The position numbers and the translations under genes were made by a program. From NCBI RefSeq assembly GCF_019890615.1, contig NZ_JAINVZ010000005.1:186001-250000 (forward strand): DNA of 64,000 nucleotides, given 5' to 3'. Below, piece after piece: positions 55,122 through 60,844 of this stretch. Under the pieces are notes generated by a model. The model was not told the DNA's origin. It saw only the letters and a list, made by a program, of their open reading frames with translations, and made no database searches. Position 1 is the stretch's first letter. Each line of letters opens with the position of its first letter. Origin of the DNA: Streptantibioticus parmotrematis. GTDB taxonomy: Bacteria > Actinomycetota > Actinomycetes > Streptomycetales > Streptomycetaceae.

Positions 55122-58100
55122 GTGGAGTACTGCATCCTTGGGCACCTCGAAGTCTTCCGGGCGGGGACTCCGGTACCGCTCGGGGGCCCGCGGGAGCGAG
55201 CCGTACTGGCGCTGCTGCTGCTCGAGGCCAATCACGTGATCCCGGTGGACCGGCTGATCGACGCGGTCTGGGGCGAGGAGCCGCCCGCGACCGCGCGCGG
55301 CCAGATCCACATCTGCATCTCCAACCTGCGCCGCCGCATCACCCTCAGCGGTCCTGATCCCATCGAGACCCGCAATCCCGGCTACCGCATCCGCGTCGAG
55401 CCCGGCACCCTCGACCTGCACCGCTTCGAGGAGCAGGTCACCGGGGGACGTGCCGCCATGACCGGGGCCCGGCCCGCGCAAGCCGTCACCGAACTGCGCG
55501 CGGCGCTGGCGCTGTGGCGGGGGCCCGCCCTCGCCGACGTCGACAGCCGTCTGGTGCGGCTGGGCGCCGCGCGGCTGGACGAGCGGCGGCTGACCGTGCT
55601 GGGCGAGTGCCTGGAGTGCGGTCTGCTCTCCGGTGAACACCGGGAACTGATCGGTGAACTGCAGTCGCTCGTGGTGGAACACCCGCTCCAGGAGCACTTC
55701 AAGGCGCTGCTGATGACCGCGCTGTACCGGGCCGGACGGCAGGCGGAGGCACTGGAGGAGTACCGGCGCGCCCGCCACGTGCTGATGGACGAACTCGGCA
55801 TCGAGCCCGGCGAGGAACTGCGGCGGCTTCATCAGAGCATGCTGGCGGGCGAGTTCACGCCCGCCCCGCCGGCCGCGGGCCGCTCGCCGCACGCTTCCGC
55901 CCCCGTGCCCGCCGAGCCCGCCGCCTGGCAGCACGATCCCGCTCCCTCGTCCGCGGACGCGTCGTCGCGTACCGGCGAGCCCTCCTCGGTGGCTCCTCGA
56001 CACCCGGCCGTCCCGGAGTCCCTGGCCTGCCTGCCGACCGGTGCCGCCGCCGCGACGTCCGCACCGGGCGCGACGACCGACCCGGTGGCGGGAGCCGTCA
56101 TCGCGCGCTCCGGTGCCGAACGCACCACCCATGACGCCGAGTTAACGTCTCCGGTCTGGCCGCAGGTGCGCACCCCCAGCCTGCTGCCCGCCGACATCCC
56201 CGACTTCACCGGCCGCCGCGAGACCATCGAGCTGATCATGCGCCAGGTCGGTGGCCGGGGCGACGGCGGCGGCACCGAGCACGCGGTGCGGGTGTGCGTG
56301 GTCGTCGGGCAGGGCGGCGCGGGCAAGACCACGCTCGCCGTGCACGTGGCCCACCTGCTCACGGAGGACTTCCCCGACGGCCGGCTCTACGCCCACCTGC
56401 GCACCGGTGACCGGCCGGTCAGCCCCGCCGACATCCTGGAGCGCTTCCTGCGGGTGCTCGGGGTGAGCGGTCCCGCGTTGCCCAAGGGGCTGGAGGAGCG
56501 CGCCGAACTCTTCCGCGACCTGGTCAGCGGGCGCCGGATGCTGATCGTGCTGGACGACGCGATGACCGAGCGCCAGGTCGCCGCGCTGCTGCCGGGAACC
56601 GCGGGCAGCGCGGTGATCGTCACCAGCCGCCGAAGACTCACCGGGCTGCCGTCGGCGGCCCGCGTGGAGATCGGCGCGCTGAGCGACGGCGGCGCGGCGG
56701 AACTGCTGTCCCGCATCGTCGGCGAGGAGCGCATCGGCGCGGAACCCGAGGAAGTCGCCGAGCTGAGCCGCTTGTGCGGAAACCTTCCTCTGGCGCTGCG
56801 CATCTGCGCCGCCCGGCTCGCGGCCCGCCCGCACTGGAGCGTGGCCGACCTGGTGGACCGCCTGGTGGACGAGTCCCGGCGGCTGGACGAACTCAACCAC
56901 GGCGAACTGGAGGTGCGCGCCTCCATCTCGCTCACCTACGACGGGCTGTCCGACGACGCCCGCCTGCTCTTCCGCCGCCTCGCGCTGCTCGACGTGCCGA
57001 GCTTCGCCCACTGGGTGGGAGCCCCGCTGCTGGAGGTCGACGCGCCGCGCGCCCAGGAGGCGCTGGAGGTGCTGGCCGAGGCCTACCTGATCAACGCCAA
57101 ACCGGGCCCCGGCGGCCACGTGCGCTACAGCTTCCACGACATGATGCGCCCCTTCGCCCGCGAGCGGCTGGTCGAGGAGGACGCGGGGGAGCGCCGCGGC
57201 GCCCTGGAACGCTGGCTGGGCGCCCTGCTGTCGCTCACCGGCGAGGCCCACCGTCGCCAATACGCGGGCGACTACCTGGAGTTGCGCAGTTCGGCGAGCC
57301 GTTGGCAGCTGCCGCGACGGCTCGTGGACCGGCTGATGGCCAACCCGCTCGGCTGGTACGAGCAGGAACGCACGTCCCTCGTCGCGGCGGTGCGCCAGGC
57401 GGCGGCCGGCGGACTGGTCGAGCACGCCTGGGACCTGGCGCTCAGCTCGGTGACGCTCTTCGAGGCGAACTCCTACTTCGACGACTGGCGCGACACCCAC
57501 GAAGTGGCGCTCAAGGCGGCGTGCCGCGCGGGTGACCGGCGCGGCGAGGCCGCGATGCGCTACTCGCTGGGCTCGCTGCACTCCTTCGAGCACGCCACCG
57601 ACCGCGCCATGCGCCAGTTCGAGCAGGCGTACACGCTCTACCGGCGGATGGACGACCACCACGGCGCCGCGCTCGTCGCCCGCAACATGGCCTACCAGGA
57701 CTGGCTCAAGGGCGACGTCACGTCCGCCATGGGCCGCTGGGAGGAGGCGCTCGGCGTCTTCCAGGTCACCGGCGACCGCATCGCCGAGGCCCACGTGCTG
57801 CAACGGATGGCCCGGGTACGTCAGGACTGCGGGGAGCCGGACGCGGCGCTGCGCCTGCTGGAGCGGGCGGGGGAGATCTGCGAGGAGGTCGGCAACGAAC
57901 GGGTCGCCGCGCAGGTCCGCAACCGCCTCGGCGAGCTGTGCCTCGGCAGCGGCGACCTCGACGGCGCGCGGCGGGCCTATCAGGCGGTGCTGGAGAGCGT
58001 GCGCGCGGCGGGCGACAAGGTCGGCCAGTGCTACGCGTTGCTGGGCCTCGCTACCGTCGAGATGCGGCGCGGCGGCCACGGCGTGGCGACTCAGACGCTG

Positions 58101-58511
58101 GCGGAGGCGCTGCGACTGGCGGTGAAGGAGGGCGCGCGGATGGCGGAGAGCCGGATCACGCTCGCGCTCGCGGAGGCCTGCCTGGTGGCGCGTCCCGAGG
58201 CCGCCGCCTCACACGCGGAGCACGCCCTGCGGGGCTTCGAGGCGATCGGGGCGACCCTGTTCAGGGCCAGGGCGCTGGGCGTCAGGGGCCGGATACGGGC
58301 CGAGGGCGGTGATCCGGAGGCGGCCAGGAACGACTGGCGGGCGGCGAAGGGACTGCTGTCCGGGATGCGGCTCGACCAGGGCGCGATGGCGCTGGCCGGA
58401 GAGCTGAGCGGGTGGCTGACGGCGCTGCCGGGCGAGACTGCCGGGAACGCGGGGGACGCCGGGGTGCTGACGCGGGCGGACGAGCTGTCCTGCGCCGATC
58501 AGGTGGTCTGA
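55122..58511 (+). CDS. Large SARP-family activator (BTAD, NB-ARC, TPR) with a TTA codon
   Basis: A 1129-residue AfsR-like regulator. An N-terminal OmpR-type winged helix (about 1-90, with RERAVLALLLLEANHVIPVD) and a bacterial transcriptional activation domain (about 95-245, ending LHQSMLAGEF) are followed by a disordered linker. Next comes an NB-ARC ATPase with VVVGQGGAGKTTLAVHVAHL and LIVLDDAM, then TPR-like helices to the end. SARPs activate antibiotic clusters by binding TCGA-type heptamer repeats, and such repeats lie 380 bp past its stop. Codon 341 is TTA (56142-56144), which in streptomycetes ties translation to the bldA tRNA. The GTG at 55122 has GGGGGG 7 bases upstream. Confidence 0.92.
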   Translation: MEYCILGHLEVFRAGTPVPLGGPRERAVLALLLLEANHVIPVDRLIDAVWGEEPPATARGQIHICISNLRRRITLSGPDPIETRNPGYRIRVEPGTLDLHRFEEQVTGGRAAMTGARPAQAVTELRAALALWRGPALADVDSRLVRLGAARLDERRLTVLGECLECGLLSGEHRELIGELQSLVVEHPLQEHFKALLMTALYRAGRQAEALEEYRRARHVLMDELGIEPGEELRRLHQSMLAGEFTPAPPAAGRSPHASAPVPAEPAAWQHDPAPSSADASSRTGEPSSVAPRHPAVPESLACLPTGAAAATSAPGATTDPVAGAVIARSGAERTTHDAELTSPVWPQVRTPSLLPADIPDFTGRRETIELIMRQVGGRGDGGGTEHAVRVCVVVGQGGAGKTTLAVHVAHLLTEDFPDGRLYAHLRTGDRPVSPADILERFLRVLGVSGPALPKGLEERAELFRDLVSGRRMLIVLDDAMTERQVAALLPGTAGSAVIVTSRRRLTGLPSAARVEIGALSDGGAAELLSRIVGEERIGAEPEEVAELSRLCGNLPLALRICAARLAARPHWSVADLVDRLVDESRRLDELNHGELEVRASISLTYDGLSDDARLLFRRLALLDVPSFAHWVGAPLLEVDAPRAQEALEVLAEAYLINAKPGPGGHVRYSFHDMMRPFARERLVEEDAGERRGALERWLGALLSLTGEAHRRQYAGDYLELRSSASRWQLPRRLVDRLMANPLGWYEQERTSLVAAVRQAAAGGLVEHAWDLALSSVTLFEANSYFDDWRDTHEVALKAACRAGDRRGEAAMRYSLGSLHSFEHATDRAMRQFEQAYTLYRRMDDHHGAALVARNMAYQDWLKGDVTSAMGRWEEALGVFQVTGDRIAEAHVLQRMARVRQDCGEPDAALRLLERAGEICEEVGNERVAAQVRNRLGELCLGSGDLDGARRAYQAVLESVRAAGDKVGQCYALLGLATVEMRRGGHGVATQTLAEALRLAVKEGARMAESRITLALAEACLVARPEAAASHAEHALRGFEAIGATLFRARALGVRGRIRAEGGDPEAARNDWRAAKGLLSGMRLDQGAMALAGELSGWLTALPGETAGNAGDAGVLTRADELSCADQVV

Positions 58512-58588
58512 GCGGATCACACGGGCCGGGTGATCGGTCGCCTTCGCTGATCGGTCCCCTTCGCGGGTGCCACGACCACGGAACGGGG

Positions 58589-58792
58589 TCAGTCCCACTG
58601 GGTGTTGCCCGGGGTCGGCGCCGGGGTGGGCGCGCCGGTCGGGGCCGGGGTGCCGCCGCCGTCGGCCGTGACGACCGCGGTGCGCGGGGCGTGGGCGGGT
58701 GAGCCGGAGGGGACGACGGCCGCCGCGGTGCCCGCGAGGGCGGTGAGCAGGGTGACACTGGCGGCGAGACGACGCAGGGCATAGGGGGACAT
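58589..58792 (-). CDS. 67-residue secreted peptide ending NTQWD
   Basis: A short gene with GGGAG 9 bases before the ATG. The signal peptide MSPYALRRLAASVTLLTALA continues to about GSPAHA. The mature part of roughly 33 residues is Thr/Pro/Ala/Gly-rich and ends PGNTQWD. It is convergent with the SARP gene (stop at 58511) and lies between the activator and its presumed target promoter. The function is unknown. The small size and exported, unfolded tail leave open a signalling or wall-associated role. It could also be a fast-evolving secreted protein with no tie to the cluster. Confidence 0.6.
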   Translation of the reverse strand: MSPYALRRLAASVTLLTALAGTAAAVVPSGSPAHAPRTAVVTADGGGTPAPTGAPTPAPTPGNTQWD

Positions 58793-58890
58793 CGAAGCCA
58801 ACTCCCTTGGTGGGGGCCGCCGTTCGGTGTGCGGCGGCTGATGACTTCGATGGTTCGCCGGGGTGCTTTCGTCCGGCTTCCCACACGTCC

Positions 58891-58933
58891 TCGATCCGCT
58901 ATCGAGCGCGACTCGAGTGGAATCCGCTATCGG
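58891..58933 (+). promoter_or_regulatory. SARP-dependent promoter: three 11-bp-spaced heptamers and a -10 box
   Basis: TCGATCC (58891-58897), TCGAGCG (58902-58908) and TCGAGTG (58913-58919) are direct repeats at exact 11-bp intervals. TATCGG (58928-58933) follows after exactly 8 bp. SARPs bind such heptamers (DnrI and ActII-ORF4 prefer TCGAGCG-like units), normally with the last repeat 8 bp from the -10 box. The orientation drives the gene at 59097. An 11-base direct repeat ATCCGCTATCG also occurs at 58894 and 58922. Confidence 0.8.
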
Positions 58934-59096
58934 CGGAACCCGGACCTCCGCCGCGCCGGCCCATCGTGACGACGGCGTTCGCCGAAAGGAGCCGTCCCGC
59001 GGCCGAAGGCGGATCGATAGCCGGACGATACCGGCGCCGCCAACCGTGGGCCGGTATCCGCGGTCTTCCCGCGCCCGAACGAGGAACGGTGTCCCG

Positions 59097-59432
59097 ATGA
59101 AGCTCTCGATCCACATCACCGACAGCGCCTTCGGCGTCGCCGCCGCGGACGTCGACGTCCTGCTCAGGAGCCACGCCGACGGCGGCTGGGAGGACCTCGT
59201 CCGCGGCAGGACGGGGGTGGACGGCACCCTCGCGGTGTGGAGCGGCGCGCCCCTGGAGTCGGGGGTCTACCAGCTCGTCTGCGATCTGGACGGCTACTAC
59301 GCCATCCTCGGCACGGTGCCGCTCCACCCGCGGGCCATCGTGGAGTTCCGGGTGAGCGACCCGGCGGCGGACCTGCATCTGCCGGTGGTGGTCTCCTCGC
59401 ACTCCTGTCTGAGCTATCGCGGCGCGAGCTGA
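59097..59432 (+). CDS. Hydroxyisourate-hydrolase/transthyretin-like protein in PKS cluster
   Basis: A 111-residue protein with the transthyretin fold signature at both ends. SIHITDSAFGVAAADVDVLL (4-23) matches the family HVLD start and supplies His6. LHLPVVVSS supplies His94. The C-terminus is SYRGAS where the family ends YRGS. The catalytic Arg of hydroxyisourate hydrolase, in TxxDGR, is Thr44 here (TGVDGT), so uric acid breakdown is doubtful. No other urate genes are present. The gene lies behind a SARP-type promoter and next to a condensation-type protein and a PKS, so it is more likely a biosynthetic or accessory protein. Its end overlaps the convergent condensation gene by 19 bp. Confidence 0.75.
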   Translation: MKLSIHITDSAFGVAAADVDVLLRSHADGGWEDLVRGRTGVDGTLAVWSGAPLESGVYQLVCDLDGYYAILGTVPLHPRAIVEFRVSDPAADLHLPVVVSSHSCLSYRGAS

Positions 59433-60844
59433 AGCGCCCCCGGCGGACGAGAGGTTCGCTCTCCCCGGTCGACCCGCGGTGCCTCCGGCACCTCGGACGG
59501 GAAGAGGCAGGCGTCGAGTTCCGCCCCCAGGACGGCGGATGACGGGTCGTCAGTCGCGTCGGCCAGCTCGCCCAGCGTGCTGTCCGGAGCGGTGACCGCC
59601 CGTCGCACCCCCAGCACCATCGTGCGCAGCGCGGTCACCACGGCCTCGGCGGGCAGCAGGTCGGGATCGGCGCGCAGCGTGATCTCGGTGCTGGTGTCGC
59701 CGTCCCCGTTGACCCTCACGTAGAAGGGGTGACCGGCATGGCGCGGCGGCGGGGTCCAGGCGAACGTGGCGGGCGGCGTGCCCCCGGGACCGGACGGCGG
59801 GGCGTCCGGGCCGGTGACGTAGTTGAACCAGCAGTCGTGCGCGAACGGCGCACCGCCGGAACGCTGTTCGGCGAGTTCCGCGGCCATGTCCACGTCGTAG
59901 CAGCCGTGCCGGTAGGCGAGCAGGGCGCCCAGGTGGACGCGCTTGAGGTGGGCGCCGAGCGCGGTGCCCGGGCCGGTGGCGCACACCAGCGGGACGAGCT
60001 GGTTCATCGTGCTGACAATGGACTGCCACCGCTGGTCGAAGCGGTTGGCGCACATCACGCTGAGCACCACCCGGTCCCGCCACACCACGCTCGCGAGCGC
60101 GGCGGCCGTCATCGCGGTCAGCACACTCTGCGGCGAGACCCCGTGCATCTTCGCCGCCTCGCCGGTCAGCTGCGCGAGCCGGTGCGAACGCAACGTGGCC
60201 TGGATCCGGCACTCCTCCGTGCGCGCGGGCGGGACCGGCAGGTTGCGTCCCGGGCCTCCGTCCAGCAGCCGGTTCCAGTACTTGCGCGCGCCACGCCGCC
60301 GGGTCGCCCACCCGTCGCCACTCTGCGCCGCGGCCAGGTCACGAGGCCGGGCCGCCGGTCCGCCCCCGGGAACCCCGCCGGTGGCGAACGCGCGGAACTC
60401 GGCCTCCAGTTGGCGCACCGCCCACACGTCGACCACCATGTGGGAGAGCGACACCAGCAGCCTGCGCGGCCGCCCGTCCACCCGCAGCAGCACCACGTGC
60501 CATCCGGGATCGTCCGTCACCGGAAACGCGCGGGCGTGCAGGGACCGCAGCGCGGCCGTCACCGTGCCGGATTCGGCGTCCGGCGCCTCGAACCACTCGA
60601 TCCTTGGCTCCAGTTGGGCATGGACGCGCTGGAACGGCACCTCGCCAGCGGTGTGGAACGTGGTCCGCAACGCCTCATGACGCTCCGTCAGACAGCGCAG
60701 AGCGTGCAGGATGCGTGCCTCGTCCAGTCCGGTCACGTCCCAGGAGTCCGGGACGTTCACCTCCATCAGCCGGTCGGCCGCGAAGGTCTCGATGGAACGC
60801 CAGGTCGACAACTGCCCGAAGTGCAAAGGGGCGTCGATGGGCAT
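59414..60844 (-). CDS. Stand-alone condensation-domain (acyltransferase-like) protein
   Basis: A 476-residue protein of the NRPS condensation/Pap acyltransferase superfamily without carrier or adenylation domains. The motif HHxxxDG reads SHMVVDV at 134-140. The catalytic second His is kept, but the first His is Ser and the Gly is Val. HALRCLTERHEALRTTFH and FNYVTGPDAPP are family-like. Free-standing members join acyl or amine groups to polyketides or lipids, for example by esterification. Given the PKS next door, an acylation or release step on the polyketide is plausible. It is divergent from the PKS and preceded by an 18-codon ORF and a long hairpin. GGAGGG lies 3 bases before the ATG. Confidence 0.85.
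   Translation of the reverse strand: MPIDAPLHFGQLSTWRSIETFAADRLMEVNVPDSWDVTGLDEARILHALRCLTERHEALRTTFHTAGEVPFQRVHAQLEPRIEWFEAPDAESGTVTAALRSLHARAFPVTDDPGWHVVLLRVDGRPRRLLVSLSHMVVDVWAVRQLEAEFRAFATGGVPGGGPAARPRDLAAAQSGDGWATRRRGARKYWNRLLDGGPGRNLPVPPARTEECRIQATLRSHRLAQLTGEAAKMHGVSPQSVLTAMTAAALASVVWRDRVVLSVMCANRFDQRWQSIVSTMNQLVPLVCATGPGTALGAHLKRVHLGALLAYRHGCYDVDMAAELAEQRSGGAPFAHDCWFNYVTGPDAPPSGPGGTPPATFAWTPPPRHAGHPFYVRVNGDGDTSTEITLRADPDLLPAEAVVTALRTMVLGVRRAVTAPDSTLGELADATDDPSSAVLGAELDACLFPSEVPEAPRVDRGERTSRPPGALQLAPR

Follow-up and report, generated by a model that had tools for sequence, protein, structure and literature searches.

A large SARP regulator beside a small secreted peptide and predicted heptamer-array operators: a possible peptide-responsive switch in an actinomycete

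Introduction

The SARP activators DnrI and ActII-ORF4 have operators built from the heptamer TCGAGxx. The signal read by the NB-ARC–TPR part of large SARPs is, to our knowledge, an open question, and among the literature matches listed, as judged by title and the start of the abstract, there is no report of a peptide ligand for a SARP. For the AfsR–afsS system, the accessible part of PMC10936776 describes an operator of 11-bp direct repeats with a poor −10 element, and names Q48, W74, P79, T88, R94 and K95 of AfsR as highly conserved DNA-contact residues. The RRNPP group of peptide receptors offers another point of reference. In the part of PMC10075063 available to us, peptide quorum sensing is placed in Bacillota, and a rule for detecting RRNPP systems sets the receptor at 250–500 aa.

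Here we analyse a locus of Streptantibioticus parmotrematis at which the gene for a large SARP is neighboured by a convergent gene for a small secreted peptide and, beyond an intergenic region, by a transthyretin-like (TTR) gene. The features are collected in Table 1; the window is the whole 64-kb stretch of DNA that was analysed.

Table 1. Positions of genes, predicted regulatory elements and sequence words in the window.
Feature	Position	Strand	Basis or remark
SARP regulator, 1129 aa, OmpR-type HTH + BTAD + NB-ARC + TPR	55122-58511	+	Pfam Trans_reg_C, BTAD, NB-ARC, TPR_12
Gene for small secreted peptide (67 aa, C-terminus PGNTQWD)	58589-58792	-	Convergent with SARP gene; absent from ORF list
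Shine-Dalgarno-like AAGGGAG, peptide gene	58802-58808	-	Read directly
Probable -10 AACCAT, peptide promoter	58850-58855	-	Predicted start ~58843; gAACCAT in L054-L057, cAACCAT in L074
Predicted peptide-gene operator heptamer 5, CGAAAGC	58865-58871	-	N8 + one base to -10
Predicted peptide-gene operator heptamer 4, GGGAAGC (weak)	58876-58882	-	Orthologues and sister comparison
Predicted peptide-gene operator heptamer 3, CGAGGAC	58887-58893	-	Orthologues and sister comparison; overlaps TCGATCC
Predicted peptide-gene operator heptamer 2, CGATAGC	58898-58904	-	Orthologues and sister comparison; overlaps TCGAGCG
Predicted peptide-gene operator heptamer 1, CGAGTCG	58909-58915	-	Orthologues and sister comparison; overlaps TCGAGTG
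TCGATCC	58891-58897	+ reading	Read directly
TCGAGCG	58902-58908	+ reading	Read directly
TCGAGTG	58913-58919	+ reading	Read directly; GAATCCGC stands between TCGAGTG and TATCGG
TATCGG, '-10' of the earlier note	58928-58933	+	Exists; CGTCGG in sister species
Predicted TTR operator heptamer 1, CGAAGGC	59004-59010	+	Array score 29.6; highest of 200 64-kb nulls 21.2
Predicted TTR operator heptamer 2, CGATAGC	59015-59021	+	Matrix scan
Predicted TTR operator heptamer 3, CGATACC	59026-59032	+	Matrix scan
Probable -10 AACCGT, TTR gene	59042-59047	+	Predicted start ~59054
Transthyretin/HIUase-family gene, 111 aa	59097-59432	+	Pfam PF00576 5.6e-15; below TIGR02962 cut-off
Condensation-domain-like protein	59414-60844	-	Pfam PF00668; also neighbour in 5 related loci (tblastn: L054-L057, L074)

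Results

The regulator has the OmpR-type HTH, BTAD, NB-ARC and TPR parts that define a large SARP, and the solved structures that match it best by sequence are AfsR and EmbR. Its score against the AfsR family model NF053617 is 537.6 bits, where the cut-off is 1430, and by this measure it is not an AfsR orthologue. In an alignment with AfsR, three of the six contact residues named in the accessible part of PMC10936776 are kept (W74 as W50, P79 as P55 and R94 as R70) and three are altered (K95 to R71, Q48 to R24 and T88 to I64); S91 is also kept, and the base-contacting R92 becomes N68. The changed contact residues may fit with a different heptamer. An AF2 model of residues 691–1100 gives a TPR superhelix with a pLDDT of 91.9. 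Among its best 50 structure matches we see Rap with pheromone at Z 30.1, and RapF, RapJ, NprR and AimR at values down to 21.0. The fold in itself does not show peptide binding, because an APC/C subunit comes first (Z 31.1) and MalT (29.7) ties with Rap, with eukaryotic and other TPR proteins as close.

Operators were sought through the TTR gene. The 111-aa query matched 73 of 199 related genomes, and the upstream regions of the window copy and of the eight best other TTR loci were read in orientation. The element that recurs in them is a series of CGATAGC-like words, and a matrix was built from 19 such heptamers of seven loci (L055–L061), leaving out the window and its sister. The sole significant array in the window, with a score of 29.6, starts at 59004: in 200 Markov null sequences of 64 kb each, the median best score was 10.9 and the maximum 21.2. 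The runner-up is the array of the peptide gene at 10.2, and the best score beyond 58800–59100 is 7.4. The array at 59004–59047 reads CGAAGGC-CGATAGC-CGATACC-N8-c-AACCGT on the plus strand and has counterparts upstream of related genes. When spacings of 7–15 bp were compared with the −10 term omitted, 11 bp gave 26.6, and spacings of 7–10 and 12–15 bp gave at most 16.4. The direct repeats of SARP operators recur every 11 or 22 bp, with about 8 bp between the 3′ repeat and the −10 element; here the repeats come in 11-bp steps, and N8 plus one base leads to xAxxxT at 59042 on the plus strand and at 58855 on the minus strand. All 13 of the best TTR-gene arrays have xAxxxT at this distance, in a set whose selecting score itself rewards xAxxxT.

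In the 250 bp upstream, 11 of the 13 TTR-like genes score above 5.7, which is the 99th percentile obtained from 520 mechanical control stretches, and so do 15 of the 18 peptide ORFs, counts that include a TTR-like ORF (L111) and peptide ORFs (L109–L112) discovered by looking downstream of arrays. Seven of the 13 TTR-like loci had trained the matrix; of the other six (the window, L054, L062, L074, L111 and L113), five lie above the threshold. Below it are L056 and L062 at the TTR gene and L062, L074 and L112 at the peptide ORF; L062 has a peptide gene without an array and a weak TTR array. Between the window and its sister species, all 68 element positions are identical, compared with 199 of 236 positions outside (Fisher p 7e-5), in a test that was not blind because the sister was already known when the elements were defined. 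Taken as predicted SARP operators, the arrays are well supported by sequence, and the SARP very probably acts on the TTR gene directly.

On the minus strand, the array CGAGTCG-CGATAGC-CGAGGAC-GGGAAGC-CGAAAGC-N8-g-AACCAT points to the 67-aa ORF (58792–58589). Its counterpart in L055 is CGAGAGC-CGATAGC-CGGCAGC-CGAGGAC-CGAAAGG-N8-gAACCAT, and the arrays of L056 and L057 end in TGATAGC-CGAGGAC-CGAAAGC-N8-gAACCAT. The matrix gives it 10.2 for heptamers 1–3, or 6.4 for the last three with the −10 element; by score alone it would not stand out, because both values lie inside the range of the 64-kb nulls. That it is an operator is nevertheless the most likely reading, a view supported by position and conservation.

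This array overlaps three TCGA words that the earlier note took, together with TATCGG, for an exact SARP promoter of the TTR gene. The words stand where that note placed them, at 11-bp steps, and TCGA-N7-TCGA-N7-TCGA has a single exact match when both strands of the window are counted. We do not attribute this periodicity to chance, because 100 dinucleotide shuffles gave no exact match, and a mean of 0.17 matches with one mismatch allowed. TCGA reads the same on either strand, and the three words are the T-flanked starts of minus-strand heptamers. The proposed −10 box fared worse: the sixth base of TATCGG is not T, and the sister species (L054 in G001) has CGTCGG in its place, with TCGAACC for TCGATCC, and TCGAGCG and TCGAGTG identical. 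The note was thus right in kind, as the DNA does look like a SARP operator, and mistaken in strand and site, since the words belong to the array of the peptide gene. Its direct target is retained through the separate array at 59004–59047. A simple scan by consensus detected neither a sigma-70 promoter nor a terminator in 58500–59200. A tRNA scan gave no hit.

The product of the TTR gene, 'hydroxyisourate-hydrolase-like' in the earlier note, belongs to the transthyretin family (PF00576). Function as an HIUase was rejected: against the HIUase equivalog model TIGR02962 the protein scores 63.9 bits, under the cut-off of 87.45. In place of YRGS, which we take to be the C-terminal signature of HIUases, the window protein and four relatives have YRGAS, YRGN, YRAA or FQDSG; L074 does have YRGS. 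The TTR protein of the sister species is 94% identical to that of the window. The 14 highest-scoring arrays of the window include none upstream of the adjacent condensation-domain-like gene. TTR-like ORFs are also found behind SARP-type arrays in other families, at L113:6156 (−) and L111:13947 (+).

The small ORF matches no Pfam or NCBIfam family. Compared with its sister it shows pN 0.064 and pS 0.199, and the last seven residues are identical. As in an RRNPP propeptide, its length falls within 10–100 aa, it adjoins a TPR protein, and it is probably exported, as judged from hydrophobicity. A tandem 17-bp repeat (94%) lies at 58531–58564, between the stop codons of the SARP and peptide genes. 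At nine of nine other loci where both SARP and TTR have homologues, a small ORF ending in NTxW[DE] stands by the SARP, in a search that demanded this ending; L057 itself had been found through the ending, and was found again through its SARP. Further C-termini are DNTIWD (L074), GNTAWD (L080), DNTSWE (L097) and SNTPWE (L082), where the L097 and L082 ORFs lie some 4 kb away from the SARP, and the L055 peptide has the motif twice. N, T and W are invariant across 15 peptide C-termini, partly by construction, because the searches demanded N, T, W and D/E (nine loci) or W and D/E (L074, L080, L097 and L082).

With a looser motif, a secreted ORF with a Shine-Dalgarno word was found within 1.5 kb at 14 of 26 SARP loci, which are related rather than independent and some of which are cut by contig ends; a 151-kb control from the same genome gave none. 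The remaining loci comprise nine without a motif ORF within 1.5 kb, one with a non-secreted ORF only (L076), and two weaker cases: the L110 ORF, which has SDDTHW twice, lacks a signal-like start, and the L109 ORF lacks a Shine-Dalgarno word. The combination of SARP gene, peptide with C-terminal xNTxW[DE] and paired arrays recurs in other genera and families. The pattern AACACNNNNTGGGASTGA matched 11 of 394 family genomes, five through these SARP loci and four apparently by chance, and its reversed form matched three. The matches in G060 (L035) and G264 (L036) are to secreted precursors that carry ANTIWD three times. They adjoin an HTH-like regulator and have neither SARP nor array within 20 kb, raising the question of a related peptide with another partner; for the precursors of L069 and L070, also with three copies of ANTIWD, there is no SARP homologue within 20 kb and no array. 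The exact form NT[IV]W[DE]-stop is narrow, as none of 394 genomes drawn from the class matches it.

L080, L097 and L082 are held-out loci; in each, one array of a pair points to the peptide gene and the other to an ORF that is, by eye, an NRPS (L080, L097) or a crotonyl-CoA reductase (L082). As a class, TTR-like genes may be a recurrent SARP target. The earlier note had offered its site as a probe and called for a motif scan. For this purpose CGATRSC at 11-bp steps is preferable to TCGAnnn: the matrix located arrays in other families, and CGATANC-N4-CGATANC a second site in the same genome. Across 7.4 Mb this pattern matches exactly at two places, the present site and one 48 kb further along (C45:293363), with ten further one-mismatch matches, compared with three for the reversed-pattern control. 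The second site is a divergent array pair on contig C45 (L066:8285 (−) and 8363 (+)), kept in the sister and also present in G207; among six genomes, G060, G264, G031 and G122 gave no exact match. It is flanked on one side by a regulator whose C-terminal part weakly matches the LuxR type and which shows no clear homology to the regulator of L036, and on the other by an acyl-carrier-protein-like ORF (3.8e-12, below cut-off) and then, by eye, an AMP-dependent ligase. Between the two sites lie ORFs with ketosynthase motifs, and in the first of them Pfam recognises domains of both the ketosynthase and the acyltransferase type, in scans of mechanical ORFs that include family-less ones, some surely in wrong frames. 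A SARP paralogue with 42–45% identity lies about 42 kb away (L066:1976–4756), and no motif peptide was found within 1.5 kb of it.

At four afsR loci (L118–L121, four genomes), an AfsS-like ORF, named by place and repeats, lies downstream in every case, and its repeats differ by genome (DAHAT, NNAMP, DFHAT and NNHGT). After one of these afsR genes (L125:12315 in G043; also L121) there is a secreted 52-aa ORF whose terminal TENNHST is nearly the TENNHGT that the preceding AfsS-like ORF repeats; this secreted ORF and its afsS have no common operator. At the other three loci, no secreted ORF carrying the motif of that locus was seen within 20 kb.

Discussion

The reading we lean towards, by a modest balance of probability, is that the intergenic region 58793–59096 is a two-way SARP control region with peptide feedback. 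The adjacent large SARP would bind CGATRSC-like heptamer arrays in 11-bp steps, and we consider this binding highly likely. From the minus-strand array of five heptamers (58915–58865), whose upstream part would contain the TCGA words, it would switch on the peptide gene through AACCAT, and we consider such feedback probable. From the plus-strand array of three heptamers (59004–59032) it would activate the TTR gene through AACCGT, and in other loci it would divergently activate the peptide gene and TTR-like or biosynthetic genes. The peptide would leave the cell, be processed to a C-terminal fragment that ends in [GD]NTxW[DE] and re-enter, and the TPR (or NB-ARC–TPR) part of the SARP would bind this fragment, unlocking the activator. 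The arguments for and against the peptide being the SARP ligand seem to us evenly balanced. The outcome would be a positive-feedback switch of the population-density type beside a polyketide cluster.

Two other accounts of the DNA sites were considered. The plus-strand words and TATCGG might themselves be the promoter of the TTR gene, as their geometry is exact in the window and crude weights give this reading 24.0, compared with 26.6 for the minus-strand reading and 32.2 for the array at 59004. However, the sister species lacks the −10 box and has an altered first heptamer, the pattern is by eye absent from the remaining orthologues and lies outside the 14 best arrays by matrix, and a different, conserved array stands nearer to the TTR gene. 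On the oriented upstream regions and the sister comparison we rejected this promoter, and regard it as highly improbable. It is also improbable that the arrays are bound by another regulator, such as the SARP paralogue, whose gene is near the second array site at C45:293363; in other genera the arrays adjoin relatives of the present SARP, and the L054–L062 stretches contain no second SARP.

The role of the small protein is where a competing account carries more weight. If the arrays are SARP operators, their target might be an exported or AfsS-like accessory protein that is activated and is not a ligand: in the accessible parts of PMC2267785 and PMC6988585, AfsS is a 63-aa protein with three 12-aa repeats that is activated by AfsR, and small ORFs with repeat motifs follow afsR in all four genomes. 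We consider this rather unlikely, though a serious contender, since the protein has a hydrophobic signal-like start and, by eye, its last five residues are the most conserved (N, T and W being partly search-imposed), as expected for a processed C-terminal signal. The conserved C-terminal core with its Trp would also suit the precursor of a RiPP or an antimicrobial, made as the output under regulation, and the SARP matches TPR families of RiPP systems (HaaT, 352.5 bits; FxSxx, 73.3 bits), both below cut-off. The secretion signal speaks against such a precursor, as does the constancy of the ORF beside the regulator where other neighbours change. Moreover, in 14 stretches no ORF of at least 200 aa has a radical-SAM-like motif (C-x3-C-x2-C with an aromatic residue, His or Leu after the second Cys), and RiPP formation with radical-SAM maturation was rejected on this count. 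We give the RiPP account little credence.

Returning to the peptide as a candidate ligand, a much wider extension can be drawn. Large SARPs, AfsR included, could be receptors for short gene-encoded peptides made under SARP control, each from a neighbouring small ORF with a repeated or C-terminal motif of its own, with the AfsS repeats as ligand and not as a sigma-like factor. The extension stems from the variation of AfsS-like repeats by genome and from the resemblance of TENNHST to TENNHGT; small-ORF motifs beside large SARPs include NTxW[DE], DPWE, STPWD and DDTHW. We hold it to be doubtful. Were it true, peptide autoinduction would switch actinomycete antibiotic clusters.

The results offer a candidate ligand, a candidate receptor domain, two promoters with predicted starts and a heptamer for finding targets, so that sensing by large SARPs becomes testable with synthetic peptides. 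If the model holds, peptide quorum sensing enters the antibiotic regulation of actinomycetes, and silent clusters gain a chemical handle.

Comparison with known systems

The predicted heptamer CGATRSC is unlike the TCGAGxx of DnrI/ActII-ORF4 operators. Shared with these are the 11-bp steps and the distance of about 8 bp to the −10 element, as given in the accessible part of PMC10936776. Within the HIUase/transthyretin family, PF00576 is common ground, and the window protein differs in its sub-cut-off score and altered C-terminal YRGS. With AfsR–afsS of Streptomyces coelicolor, as far as the sources consulted describe it, the locus shares a SARP–NB-ARC–TPR protein and a small ORF preceded by an operator, here a predicted one, of 11-bp direct repeats with a poor −10 element. 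It differs in that the SARP is no AfsR orthologue by sequence score, that the base-contacting T88 and R92 of AfsR are I64 and N68 here, and that the small protein has a signal-like start, another motif and a convergent orientation. Like the RRNPP systems of Bacillota (Rap, NprR, PlcR, AimR), the locus places a TPR protein beside a small, probably exported propeptide with a conserved C-terminus, and the predicted TPR structure matches those of Rap, NprR and AimR, with MalT and eukaryotic TPR proteins matching as well. Unlike the RRNPP systems, the putative receptor has 1129 aa rather than the 250–500 aa of the detector rule in the available part of PMC10075063, and is a SARP-type activator with NB-ARC, in a system that belongs to Actinomycetota and would work through heptamer-array operators.
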